A stretch of 64,000 nucleotides of DNA from Pseudomonas syringae (GTDB taxonomy: Bacteria; Pseudomonadota; Gammaproteobacteria; Pseudomonadales; Pseudomonadaceae). Below the pieces are notes generated by a model that worked only from the letters and a program-made list of their open reading frames with translations, was not told where the DNA came from and searched no databases. Below are positions 46,912 through 56,989 of the stretch, in pieces. The stretch spans positions 1,146,501 through 1,210,500 of the forward strand of contig NZ_CP066265.1 of the NCBI RefSeq assembly GCF_023278085.1. Direction: 5' to 3'. A program made the translations under genes and the position numbers. Position 1 is the first letter of the stretch. Each line of letters starts with the position of its first letter.

Positions 46912-47327
46912 GGGGCAACCGTATGGATGGGCTTGTTAGCTATGAGCCGGGGCGGGGCGGGAAGTTCGGGGAGTTTGCGTGAGCGTTACTGAGGATGAGT
47001 CGCGATAAGTGTCTTGGAGAACGCGATCGTGCATAAAAGCGCTTTTTTATCGCGATGGCACTGACGACGCAGAGTGCGACGTAAGTGACGGCTGAGCCCT
47101 GGCGCTGATCCGGGGGTAGCCTGGCAGGACGCCAGGCTAGCCGCACCGGGCCATGGATGGCCCGTTGCGGCGACCCCCGGATCAGTGTCAGGGCGAAGGA
47201 ACCCGACGAAGTCGGGCCGGAAACGGAGCCGGGACTTTGCCTACTTTGGTCCCTCAAAGTAGGGCGCCGTAAGGGCGCAAAGGTGACCTGAGCCTGAGGC
47301 AAACATCACTGACATCGCAGAACAGTT
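46912..47327. other. Intergenic region with multi-hairpin element
   Basis: About 415 bases without a supported gene. An open frame (46940-47302, minus) is typical of the spurious frame that accompanies this repeat in Pseudomonas. The structured part is annotated as a repeat. Confidence 0.6.
47090..47300. repeat. Multi-hairpin intergenic repeat element of Pseudomonas
   Basis: An outer 13-bp stem CTGATCCGGGGGT (47105-47117) pairs with 47173-47185. It encloses two arms: TAGCCTGGC-AGGAC-GCCAGGCTA (47117-47139) and GCCGCA-C-CGGGCCAT/ATGGCCCG-T-TGCGGC (47140-47171). Further hairpins follow, CCCGAC-GAA-GTCGGG and CTACTTTG/CAAAGTAG. I recall similar elements between many Pseudomonas genes. No coding capacity is supported. 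Confidence 0.75.
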
Positions 47328-50725: not shown

Positions 50726-50932
50726 TCACGCGCCGTGGCATTTCTTGAATTTCTTGTCGCTGCCGCATGGGCAAGGATCGTTGCGACCCACGTCCTTCAG
50801 GGTATTGCGCACCGGTTCCTGGTGAGCGTGACCGCAGTTAGGACCGTGGACATGGCCGTGCTGGTGGTCATGATGATCATGGTCGTGATCGTGGTTGCAA
50901 TCTGGGCCATGAACATGGGCTTGCTGGTTCAT
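50726..50932 (-). CDS. His-rich SEC-C motif protein
   Basis: A 68-residue protein. The first 40 residues are a His/Asp-rich tract ([27 protein letters not shown]); the C terminus is a SEC-C zinc motif, [18 protein letters not shown]. The SEC-C motif in SecA binds zinc and SecB. The start ATG follows GGAG at 8 bases; an upstream frame adds 18 residues. The two metal-binding zones suggest a small metal chaperone or store, though this is inference. Confidence 0.8.
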
Positions 50933-51036: not shown

Positions 51037-51050
51037 TTAAGTATGCTTAG
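51037..51050. promoter_or_regulatory. Candidate operator of the CI-like repressor (autoregulatory copy)
   Basis: TTAAGTATGCTTAG lies 56 bases before the repressor gene and matches the perfect palindrome TTAAGCATGCTTAA at 52200-52213 in 12 of 14 positions. Confidence 0.6.
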
Positions 51051-51105
51051 TTTTTGTCGGGCGTTTTCAGCGTCCCTGTATTTCCTGCAACGCTGAGCCA
51101 GCCCT

Positions 51106-51762
51106 ATGACCAGACACGAACGCATTGCCAAAGCCATCGCCGCCAGCGGCATGAAGAAGGGCGAAATCGCCGCCCGGTGCGGTGTCGCCAACTCGGCGGT
51201 GACCCAGTGGATAAGCGGCGAAAGCAAGAGCCTGCGGCCTGAGAATCTCTACGCGCTGGCCAGAGCCACCGGCTTTCGCGCCGAGTGGCTGGCCATCGGT
51301 GACGGCCCCGAGAAGGCGCCGGAGTTCGACGCCAACGTTGCCTTGATCGATCAGCCAGAAATGTCCTTTCGCTATCCGGTAATCAGTTGGGTATCCGCCG
51401 GGTCCTGGGAGGAGGCTGTGCAGCCTTATCCCGACGGGTTCTCGGACCGCTATGAAATCTCCGACTACGACTCCAAAGGTCCGGCGTTCTGGCTTGAGGT
51501 CAAGGGCGACTCGATGACCGCGCCCACCGGCGTCAGCGTGCCTGAGGGGATGTTGATTCTGGTGGACACCGAAGCGGATGTTCAGCCTGGCAAACTGGTC
51601 ATTGCCAAGCTGCCCGCCAGCAACGAGGCGACGTTCAAGAAGCTGGTGGAGGATGGCGGCACTCGTTATCTGAAGCCGCTCAACCCGGCGTACAAAATGA
51701 TCGAATGCGGTGCCGACTGTCGCATTATCGGTGTCGCGGTAAGGATGACGGGCAAGCTGTAA
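51106..51762 (+). CDS. Cleavable CI/LexA-like (S24) transcriptional repressor, PrtR type
   Basis: A 218-residue repressor. The N-terminal HTH_3 domain (1-65) includes KKGEIAARCGVANSAVTQWI. The C-terminal S24 peptidase domain has the cleavage-site pair in WVSAGSW, catalytic Ser in KGDSMTAP and Lys in NEATFKKLV, so RecA-stimulated self-cleavage is expected. It resembles PrtR, which represses pyocin/tailocin genes. A palindromic operator lies upstream, and another lies before the holin gene. Confidence 0.88.
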   Translation: MTRHERIAKAIAASGMKKGEIAARCGVANSAVTQWISGESKSLRPENLYALARATGFRAEWLAIGDGPEKAPEFDANVALIDQPEMSFRYPVISWVSAGSWEEAVQPYPDGFSDRYEISDYDSKGPAFWLEVKGDSMTAPTGVSVPEGMLILVDTEADVQPGKLVIAKLPASNEATFKKLVEDGGTRYLKPLNPAYKMIECGADCRIIGVAVRMTGKL

Positions 51763-51855
51763 GCCTTGATCTACAAGCGTTGGTAGAGCTTCTGTCAATT
51801 GTCGGCAAGGCGAAACGTCCTACGAGCTGCTTGCCGAAATCCTGTGGCTGGAATA

Positions 51856-51871
51856 CTGTATTTATATACAG
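51856..51871. promoter_or_regulatory. LexA (SOS) box before the DUF1654 gene
   Basis: CTGTATTTATATACAG fits CTG-N10-CAG and matches the LexA consensus CTGTATATATATACAG at 15 of 16 bases. It ends 20 bases before the DUF1654 start codon. Confidence 0.8.
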
Positions 51872-51890
51872 TAAAGCATGGGAGATCATC

Positions 51891-52142
51891 ATGGCTAACC
51901 ACTTTAATTCTGCGTCGGTTACGACCTCTTCCTACGAGTTGATCGGCAGACGGATTCAACGGCTGGTCTCGGCCCCGGACGTGCAGAAGATTCAGTGGGT
52001 GATCGTCACGCGCAAGGATGACGAACCGCTGGACAGCTGGGACAGGGTGCTCCGGGACATCGGAGAAACCGAAGGGATTCAGGTCGACCGCCAGCATGAC
52101 GGGGCCGTCCGGATCGGCTGGCAACGCTACATCGACAACTGA
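51891..52142 (+). CDS. DUF1654 family protein
   Basis: An 83-residue protein with the DUF1654 pattern (SYELIGRRIQRLVSAPDVQK, QWVIVTRKDDEPLDSWDRVL). Such genes occur in Pseudomonas phages and near LexA-controlled loci; function is unknown. The ATG is preceded by GGGAG. A near-consensus LexA box covers the likely promoter, so the gene should be induced by DNA damage. It lies between the repressor and the holin. Confidence 0.82.
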   Translation: MANHFNSASVTTSSYELIGRRIQRLVSAPDVQKIQWVIVTRKDDEPLDSWDRVLRDIGETEGIQVDRQHDGAVRIGWQRYIDN

Positions 52143-52199
52143 CCATTGCACCTTTGCGGATGACCGACGACCGGACAATACAGTCACTTGATTATATTT

Positions 52200-52213
52200 T
52201 TAAGCATGCTTAA
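52200..52213. promoter_or_regulatory. Candidate operator of the CI-like repressor (upstream of holin)
   Basis: A perfect 14-bp palindrome TTAAGCATGCTTAA, about 195 bases upstream of the holin start and similar to the sequence in front of the repressor gene itself. Confidence 0.62.
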
Positions 52214-52407
52214 GTAAGGCTTTCCCTGTTTAATATTTCACCCGTCATTTAATGGCGTCAGCGCAAGGATGCGACAAGGGCAGGGCGGCCCATGTGTCAG
52301 ACCGGATGACTTCCACGCCTCTCTCCCTGACGAGTTTCCGGCAGACGCTAAGTACCTGAGTTTTTCTGTGTTCGAACGGCTGTTATCTCTTGAGCGGAGT
52401 CAGGCTG

Positions 52408-52734
52408 ATGGATCTCTTGAACGGTTTGGCAGACAGAGGCGAATGGTTGGTGGCCGGCCTGGTTGGCGCGATCATCTCTGGCTGGTGGCACAAGGCGGCG
52501 TTGCCCGACTGGCGCGCCTGGATGGTTTTTCTCGTCACAGGCGTGGCCTGCGCAGTGTTCCTCACCGGCATTGCCAGCAATTACCTGGGCGTTGCCGAGC
52601 CTCGCAACATCACGGGCGTCGGCTTTTTGTTAGGCTCGTTTGGTGGCGCGCTGATCAGTGCCGTCAATCGGGCGTTGTGGGCGGCAGACGTCTGGAAGTT
52701 TCTGATGGAGCTGATCAAAGGCAGGCTGGGCTGA
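52408..52734 (+). CDS. Phage/tailocin-type holin
   Basis: A 108-residue small membrane protein. Three hydrophobic segments are visible: EWLVAGLVGAIISGWW, AWMVFLVTGVACAVFLTGIA and TGVGFLLGSFGGALISAV. A basic C-terminal tail ends ELIKGRLG. It matches holins at the left end of R-type pyocin/tailocin clusters in pseudomonads. The start MDLL has GGAG 8 bases upstream. No endolysin or tail gene follows, so it is either an orphan or acts with a remote cluster. Confidence 0.75.
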   Translation: MDLLNGLADRGEWLVAGLVGAIISGWWHKAALPDWRAWMVFLVTGVACAVFLTGIASNYLGVAEPRNITGVGFLLGSFGGALISAVNRALWAADVWKFLMELIKGRLG

Positions 52735-52745
52735 GCGTGATCCGC

Positions 52746-53240
52746 TTATCGGCGATCTTTGATCAGGTCGCCTGGAATCACGTCGCCTGAGCGCAGGATG
52801 CGCACATTATGGTGAAACAGAATGCCGGTCTTGAGTTTGCCTTCAAGCTGGTAATGGATGGTCTGGTCAGGCTTCTTCAGCAGTCTGGCAATGTATCTGG
52901 CGTGCTGCCACAGGTTGGTCCGGACGGATATCAGCAGGGTTTTCCGGCTGTCGCCGTCGACAAAAAACCAGTCGCTGGACTTGCCCTCGGCCAGCATTTC
53001 CTCATTCAGCATGATTTTGTAATTCAGGCCGCGCACCAGCAGTCGTGAGTCGTTGGGATTATCGACTTCGAAATACAGTTTGAAATCCTGATGCGTCAGC
53101 CGGGCCTTGATCACCTCGACTTTCAGCAGATGCACTTCCGGGTCCTGAACGCTGTCAAAGTTCAGTAACGAGCATCCGCTCAGCCCCAACATGACCAACG
53201 CAAGGCTTATGAATCTTGTAATGTGCGCCTGAAAAGACAT
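52746..53240 (-). CDS. LEA type 2 (WHy-domain) lipoprotein
   Basis: A 164-residue protein. The signal peptide ends in the lipobox MLGLSGC. The rest is one LEA-14/WHy domain, with DFKLYFEVDNPNDSRLLVRG typical (the N-P-N signature). Such lipoproteins are linked to water or desiccation stress; the role is family knowledge. The start MSFQ follows GGAG at 7 bases. It is convergent with the holin gene, 11 bases apart. Confidence 0.85.
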   Translation of the reverse strand: MSFQAHITRFISLALVMLGLSGCSLLNFDSVQDPEVHLLKVEVIKARLTHQDFKLYFEVDNPNDSRLLVRGLNYKIMLNEEMLAEGKSSDWFFVDGDSRKTLLISVRTNLWQHARYIARLLKKPDQTIHYQLEGKLKTGILFHHNVRILRSGDVIPGDLIKDRR

Positions 53241-56497: not shown

Positions 56498-56989
56498 GAG
56501 GAACGATAACTATCGTACGACGCTCCGCGTCGTATGCAGTTCTGGACGTTCTGCGTCCGATCTTGAGTGTGTGGTGCGGCGCAGATTTGTGACGCGGAGC
56601 GTCACGCAATGCTTTCCCACGCTGGAGCGTGAGGAACGAGAGTCTCGACTATCGTACGTCGCTCCGCGTCGTATGCAGTTCTGGACGCTCTGCGTCCGAT
56701 CTTGAGTGTGTGGTGCGGCGCAGATTTGTGACGCGGAGCGTCACGCAATGCATTCCCACGCTGGAGCGTGAGGAACGAGAGTCCCGACTATCGTACGTCG
56801 CTCCGCGTCGTATGCAGTTCTGGACGCTCTGCGTCCGATCTTGAGTGTGTGGTGCGGCGCAGATTTGTGACGCGGAGCGTCACGCAATGCATTCCCACGC
56901 TGGAGCGTGAGGAACGAGAGTCCCGACTATCGTACGTCGCTCCGCGTCGTATGCAGTTCTGGACGCTCTGCGTCCGATCTTGAGTGTGT
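56498..56989. repeat. Tandem REP array, 139-bp units, inverse of the 11-kb array
   Basis: Units start at 56498 (133 bp, one short deletion), 56631, 56770 and 56909 (partial). Each has the GACGC-TCC-GCGTC palindrome, TGGACGCTCTGCGTCC, GTGACGCGGAGCGTCAC and CCACGCTGGAGCGTG. This is the reverse complement of the unit near 11 kb apart from a shorter spacer. The last copy runs right up to the ychJ stop codon at 56990. Repeated frames of 71 residues inside it are not genes. Confidence 0.92.

Follow-up and report, generated by a model that had tools for sequence, protein, structure and literature searches.

The stretch of Pseudomonas syringae DNA analysed here, called the window below, covers 64,000 nucleotides (contig NZ_CP066265.1, positions 1,146,501 to 1,210,500). 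It carries a 1.7-kb cassette (the module) in which the genes for a CI-like repressor, a DUF1654 protein and a holin follow one another on the forward strand, with no further genes before the flanking ones (Table 1). This row of three, with a putatively cleavable repressor, had been described in an earlier note made from the letters alone (the original prediction), and domain and phrog matches confirmed it. The housekeeping-like character of the next genes was also borne out, as the neighbours are chromosomal genes of this kind. No tail, baseplate or fibre genes lie between the flanks, and integrase and structural genes are absent from the module.

The genes and control elements of the module

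Residues 15-212 of the repressor align to CI of phage lambda, including an A98-G99 pair, S136 and K178. The pair is the putative cleavage site, and S136 and K178 are the putative catalytic residues; in lambda CI the matching residues are the catalytic ones, K192 being named in an entry title as well. Together with a helix-turn-helix (HTH) domain and a Peptidase_S24 domain, the Ala-Gly site and the Ser/Lys pair give the protein the sequence features of a self-cleaving S24 repressor. The holin, for which ATG 52408 is the best start, matches phrog_2359 along the length of the family and contains hydrophobic segments, and a permeabilising role is predicted for it.

Conservation was assessed over 17 loci, namely the window and 16 relatives (L015-L030) from a scan of close relatives with the holin, which is a sample and not a census of the syringae complex. 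Out of 21 holin relatives in named genomes, these 16 have the complete module in the same genomic surroundings; judging from the names they are presumably syringae-complex species and their kin, with P. graminis as the title of one record. Among the other five holin relatives (L031-L035), the three whose frames were read look like prophages. Across the 17 loci, the cleavage-site and catalytic residues of the repressor are invariant and internal stops are absent. The median ratio of nonsynonymous to synonymous substitution rates (dN/dS) is 0.044 for CI, 0.162 for DUF1654 and 0.093 for the holin, compared with 0.060-0.179 for three neighbouring genes, at a median dS of about 1.0-1.3 for the module genes. 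Of the three proteins, CI shows the strongest conservation.

The two palindromes that the original prediction placed before the repressor and the holin are present exactly as quoted. They fit the pattern TTAAGYATGCTTAR, to which the 5.6-Mb genome has no perfect match apart from these two. Looser matches, with up to two mismatches, number 8 per strand versus 24 and 20 for a reversed control, that is, no more than expected by chance. The holin operator retains 13/13 positions in 15 loci and 12/13 in two, while the repressor operator retains 12/13 in 15 loci, 11/13 in one and 10/13 in one, against a best score of 10/13 among 1,271 background windows. Because they are conserved over 17 loci, the palindromes are more than chance occurrences. 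The degenerate second operator before the main holin operator is better kept in relatives (12/13 in L025; 10-11/13 in L022-L024, L027, L029 and L030), and the paired holin operators, 22 bp apart, resemble the O_L site pairs of prophages, which are spaced by 25-26 bp. The intergenic DNA around the operators and the SOS box has diverged in both sequence and length.

Two elements were overlooked by the original prediction. One is the SOS box before DUF1654, a textbook match to the SOS box consensus, and the other is the P_L-like promoter around the holin operator. In the best relatives this promoter reads TTGACT-17-TAAATT, and the version in the window is weaker. A conserved terminator was not found between DUF1654 and the holin, where several loci have short weak hairpins and only L030 has a strong one; LexA-controlled read-through into the holin is therefore possible.

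Table 1. Features of the module and its flanks (window positions)
Feature	Position	Strand	Remarks
Candidate CI operator before the repressor gene (O_R-like), TTAAGTATGCTTAG	51037..51050		Perfect pattern match
CI-like repressor, HTH_3 + Peptidase_S24	51106..51762	+	Domain matches; phrog_4 repressor
SOS (LexA-type) box before DUF1654, CTGTATTTATATACAG	51856..51871		Ends 20 bases before the DUF1654 ATG
DUF1654 gene, 83 amino acids, predicted SOS-induced	51891..52142	+	PF07867, 4.3e-26
Degenerate second operator, 22 bp before the main holin operator	52178..52191		6/13 in the window
P_L-like promoter	52188..52216	+	-35 TTGATT 52188-52193, 17-nt spacer, -10 TAAGTA 52211-52216
Candidate CI operator inside the holin promoter (O_L-like), TTAAGCATGCTTAA	52200..52213		Perfect pattern match
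Ribosome-binding site GGAG before the holin ATG	52396..52399	+	Kept in most aligned rows
Holin, 108 amino acids, up to three hydrophobic segments	52408..52734	+	phrog_2359 holin, 1.8e-28; hydropathy
Left flank: SEC-C motif gene	50726..50932	-	Domain match; adjoins LEA_2 in the module-free loci read
Right flank: LEA_2 lipoprotein-like gene	52746..53240	-	Domain match

The LexA-type box is a feature of DUF1654 genes well beyond the module. The motif CTGT-N8-ACAG precedes DUF1654 in 17/17 module loci. The strict pattern CTGTAYN4RTACAG occurs at nine sites of the genome and at none for a reversed control; each of the genome's four DUF1654 genes (L011-L014) has one of these sites upstream, and another lies ahead of UmuD- and UmuC-like genes of the second contig, as judged from translations read by eye. 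In the genus, the DUF1654 family was found in 102 of 119 genomes, and a box of at least 10/12 positions, taken as the best score in the 150 bp upstream of the Pfam match, stands before 71 of 73 genes (L041-L069, L117-L156 and L011-L014). The best-scoring set, made up of the top 30 loci of the genus list and three more of this genome, reaches at least 10/12 in 33/33 cases and at least 11 in 32. For the lower-scoring set, 40 loci picked by hand below about 96 bits, without near-identical copies of one genome and including three module copies, the corresponding numbers are 38/40 and 31. Background windows attain 10/12 or more in 2 of 1,980 and 3 of 2,000 cases. The palindrome starts 55-86 bp before the Pfam match. 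A full-text literature search for DUF1654 returned one paper, in which the family is described as having no known function, and the box would represent a first regulatory handle on this widespread group.

As separate observations, the UmuD- and UmuC-like genes with their box lie at G000 contig C2:1408-1878 and following (L078), and strict SOS-type boxes at L075 and L076 (G000:C1:2768505 and 3721768) stand near small frames of 133 and 82 amino acids with no assigned function.

Relation to prophage immunity regions and the insertion site

None of the 47 phage records with a match covers at least 80% of the module. The best 80 of 278 viral holin relatives all lack a CI-like gene within 3 kb (more than 3 kb of upstream sequence being available in 62 of the 80), and none has an operator of at least 11/13 within 320 bp upstream. 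In 13 of these 80 loci a CI-like gene is present, but it ends about 5.9-8.8 kb upstream and lies on the other strand. Since no case was found among the 80 viral relatives, control of the holin by CI appears to be special to the module.

A scan of 135 phage, prophage and related loci returned 15 with both a CI relative and DUF1654, three of which are module copies (L120, L127 and L153) and were set aside; the tailocin locus L036 was scanned and left unlisted. In 11 of the 12 non-module loci, cI is followed by DUF1654 on the same strand at a distance of 192-3,733 bp. The exception, L038, has a CI of 36% identity on the opposite strand. Operator sites were then defined by the class [AT]TAAGN4CTTA[AT], which was set after the prophage sites had been viewed. 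Such sites occur before cI in 9/11 loci and 50-105 bp after DUF1654 in 7/9 loci with downstream sequence (58 bp in the window), while L195 and L197 have none. The 11 loci contain 31 such sites, without exception at O_R or O_L, and none was seen in 90 kb of other Pseudomonas DNA. Around the site after DUF1654, six prophage loci have TTGAC, a spacer of 17-18 nt and TATATT. These counts are not independent, as the prophage and module loci are related (L193/L194; L198, L229, L262, L282 and L307 have near-alike repressors).

When 2.2 Mb of DNA outside the module was scanned with a profile of its holin promoter, the P_L of L282 ranked first (24.5 bits), followed by the P_L of L307 (16.6) and a P_R-like site of L308 (15.2). 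The P_L of L198 comes next at 14.2 bits, a level at which unrelated sites start to appear. Of the prophages with DUF1654, L192 is the closest in its CI (72% identity) and has TTAAG-CTTAA sites at both places, and the CI relatives read outside the complex belong to prophage-like loci, not to tailocin PrtR loci. In lambda the order is O_R, cI, the rex position and O_L/P_L. The module likewise has cI flanked by O_R and by downstream O_L/P_L operators on the same strand, and the related Pseudomonas prophage-like loci agree with it in gene order, strand, operators and the layout of P_L. Given this shared layout of cI, DUF1654 and operators, the best interpretation of the module is a lambdoid immunity region in which a holin has come to lie behind P_L. 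The module differs from such a region in that cro, N and the genes for replication, structure and integration are missing between the flanks; the SEC-C gene and the holin stand where the divergent P_R-cro and N would be, and the holin, normally a late gene, comes after P_L.

The exceptional locus L038 (G000:C1:3748337-3750481) contains a second CI-like repressor, 38% identical, about 1.3 kb from an SOS-boxed DUF1654 gene on the opposite strand. A recombinase-like frame, recognised by eye, lies beside this DUF1654 gene, and the locus is perhaps a small integrated element.

The insertion site could be followed through the LEA_2 neighbour, which was found in 119/119 Pseudomonas genomes searched. 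Within the best 30 of these 119 loci, the module is present in four, those with a LEA_2 identity of at least 67%. The other 26, with identities of at most 60%, contain no matches to CI, DUF1654 or the holin, and there the SEC-C gene adjoins LEA_2 on the same strand, with a gap of about 25 nt or less in 24 loci and about 220 nt in two. Because the flanks stand side by side in 26/26 outgroup loci read, the cassette represents a clean insertion of three genes at a single site, which would most simply have happened once, in an ancestor of the syringae complex.

Proposed function and its alternatives

Taken together, these features suggest that the cassette is probably a lambdoid prophage immunity region which was cut down, fused to a holin and kept as a damage-triggered host function. 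The original prediction had considered a damage-triggered switch acting on its own, and this option gains support at the sequence level from the predicted S24 cleavage site and catalytic residues, the two candidate CI sites and the newly added LexA-type box. In an undamaged cell, CI would occupy O_R, with autoregulation, as well as O_L, keeping the P_L-derived holin promoter off. After DNA damage, RecA-stimulated self-cleavage of CI would free this promoter, and the holin would be made. In parallel, cleavage of LexA would turn on DUF1654 from its SOS box, and the product would most likely aid the switch, for instance by attaching to CI and inactivating it; the DUF1654 transcript might extend into the holin as well. 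The holin would then permeabilise the inner membrane and cause cell death or lysis, with or without an endolysin from elsewhere, and the benefit would presumably fall to the population.

Several points weigh against this interpretation. The module has no endolysin, and its O_R consists of one clear site, compared with one to three in the prophages that have sites. The holin promoter of this genome is weak (TTGATT-17-TAAGTA), a consensus promoter scan of the region returned no promoter versus 1.2 in shuffled sequences, and the -35 element lacks TTG in 2/17 loci. The frame of the holin N-terminus is disturbed in L028 (P. cerasi). As the relatives were found via the holin, genomes of the complex without it are invisible to the scan. 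Regulation by LexA is suggested by the box, on which a dedicated repressor may act instead, and it is by analogy that DUF1654 is possibly an antirepressor.

A connection with tailocins was the other option raised by the original prediction, which had placed the module in the possible service of a remote cluster. The genome search that it recommended did recover the two module copies of the palindrome; in the trpE-trpG tailocin cluster, no operator was found within two mismatches. This cluster has a repressor, a DUF1654 gene, an endolysin gene and two Rz-like spanin genes of its own, and the module also occurs in genomes with no match to the tailocin endolysin, so that a dedicated link is not upheld. 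A looser link, in which the remote R-type tailocin at trpE-trpG relies on the module for its holin and both are co-induced by a common SOS trigger without a shared operator, is compatible with the damage-switch explanation but somewhat unlikely. The endolysin and two spanins of the cluster are not accompanied by a phrog_2359 holin, and a phrog_2359 match is found in 17/17 module-bearing genomes and is single in 16 of them, which would fit such a supply; the only holin-like protein among the ten cluster proteins scanned matches phrog_2658 'hol-like chemotaxis' and could itself be the holin of the tailocin. A further point in favour is that the tailocin repressor shares 55% identity with CI and has a DUF1654 gene with a LexA-type box behind it, although by eye the repressor differs from CI in the HTH and in the upstream repeats. 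The lack of a shared operator speaks against the supply, as do the endolysin matches, found in 15/17 module-bearing genomes (one over only 30 residues) and absent from two, in counts which include drafts and possibly prophage copies. R-type syringacin genes are reported as absent from some syringae strains (PMC6331570). Although the module may contribute to the release of tailocins, it is more than a tailocin accessory.

In this genome, transposase-like frames and a GDSL-autotransporter-like gene, recognised by eye, separate trpE from the tailocin repressor (L036:10430-14133).

A broader and unlikely proposal is that the module, besides being a damage switch, acts as a phage-sensing suicide guard. 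CI would be a decoy for phages of the same immunity group; RecA or an antirepressor from a phage or prophage would inactivate it, and the holin would fire before the phage matures. DUF1654 would then be the host's SOS-made version of such a factor, from a genus-wide antirepressor family that couples the CI-type switches of tailocins, prophages and the guard to one decision. It is still more doubtful that the module serves superinfection immunity, with the chromosomal CI repressing incoming phages that have TTAAG-N4-CTTAA operators and the holin being secondary. The prophage-like loci L192 and L308, with a CI 72% identical and the same operator class, agree with this idea, and so does the strong conservation of CI; immunity alone, however, needs neither a conserved holin, nor its operator, nor the ribosome-binding site kept in most loci. 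A decaying prophage relic without present function, the remaining option of the original prediction, is highly improbable, for although the missing integrase, structural and endolysin genes and the disturbed holin of L028 would suit it, the frames are otherwise open and free of stop codons, dN/dS is 0.04-0.16 at a median dS of about 1, and the operators and SOS box are kept in 17/17 loci despite diverged intergenic DNA.

As a proposed damage-triggered switch, the module can be compared with several known systems. The nearest in its proposed action is the AlpR-AlpA-AlpBCDE pathway of P. aeruginosa, which is chromosomal, has prophage features and includes a repressor that cleaves itself upon damage and restrains a holin-encoding pathway (PMC7969949). 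The sequence features of the module would fit a putatively autocleavable repressor over a holin. The Alp system differs, in this comparison by description, by an AlpA antiterminator between the repressor and alpBCDE, with a putative holin and antiholin, while in the module a repressor site sits directly within the promoter of a single holin gene, and a DUF1654 gene with an SOS box takes the rex position of lambda. An alpBCDE-type lysis operon or AlpA gene is not among the genes between the flanks, where the three stand alone, although no sequence search was aimed at AlpA. The module would act like the Alp pathway but is not a member of it.

For the SOS-made partner, the nearest model by analogy would be the LexA-controlled antirepressors of the Gifsy prophages (GfoA, GfhA and GftA) and of coliphages 186 and N15, small proteins which feed the SOS response into prophage induction via the repressor (PMC3121763). 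In contrast to those systems as presented there, the CI of the module looks cleavable, DUF1654 lies inside the module, and its antirepressor role is putative. In the tailocin PrtR-holin modules of pseudomonads, too, a holin shares its locus with a PrtR-like repressor (PMC7815802), whereas the present module has no tail genes, occupies a separate chromosomal site and has its CI relatives, among those read, in prophage cI genes. No description of the module in P. syringae was found by title or abstract opening in the literature searched, which lies mostly outside subscription journals.

If the damage-switch interpretation is correct, a self-lysis switch simpler than Alp has been kept across many species of a plant-associated complex. 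Its origin could be traced gene by gene, with phage lysogeny control becoming a host property through a holin placed under P_L. This would open to testing whether damage-triggered suicide is a general bacterial trait and whether its use lies in phage defence or in setting free particles, DNA or vesicles.

Two further features were noted elsewhere in the window. A TwoAYGGAY RNA (RF01731) lies at 47089-47201 on the forward strand, with 52.2 bits against a gathering score of 43. A tandem array at 56509-56989, with 3.5 copies of a 139-bp unit and 98% matches, is located between a TonB receptor gene and a second SEC-C-like gene.
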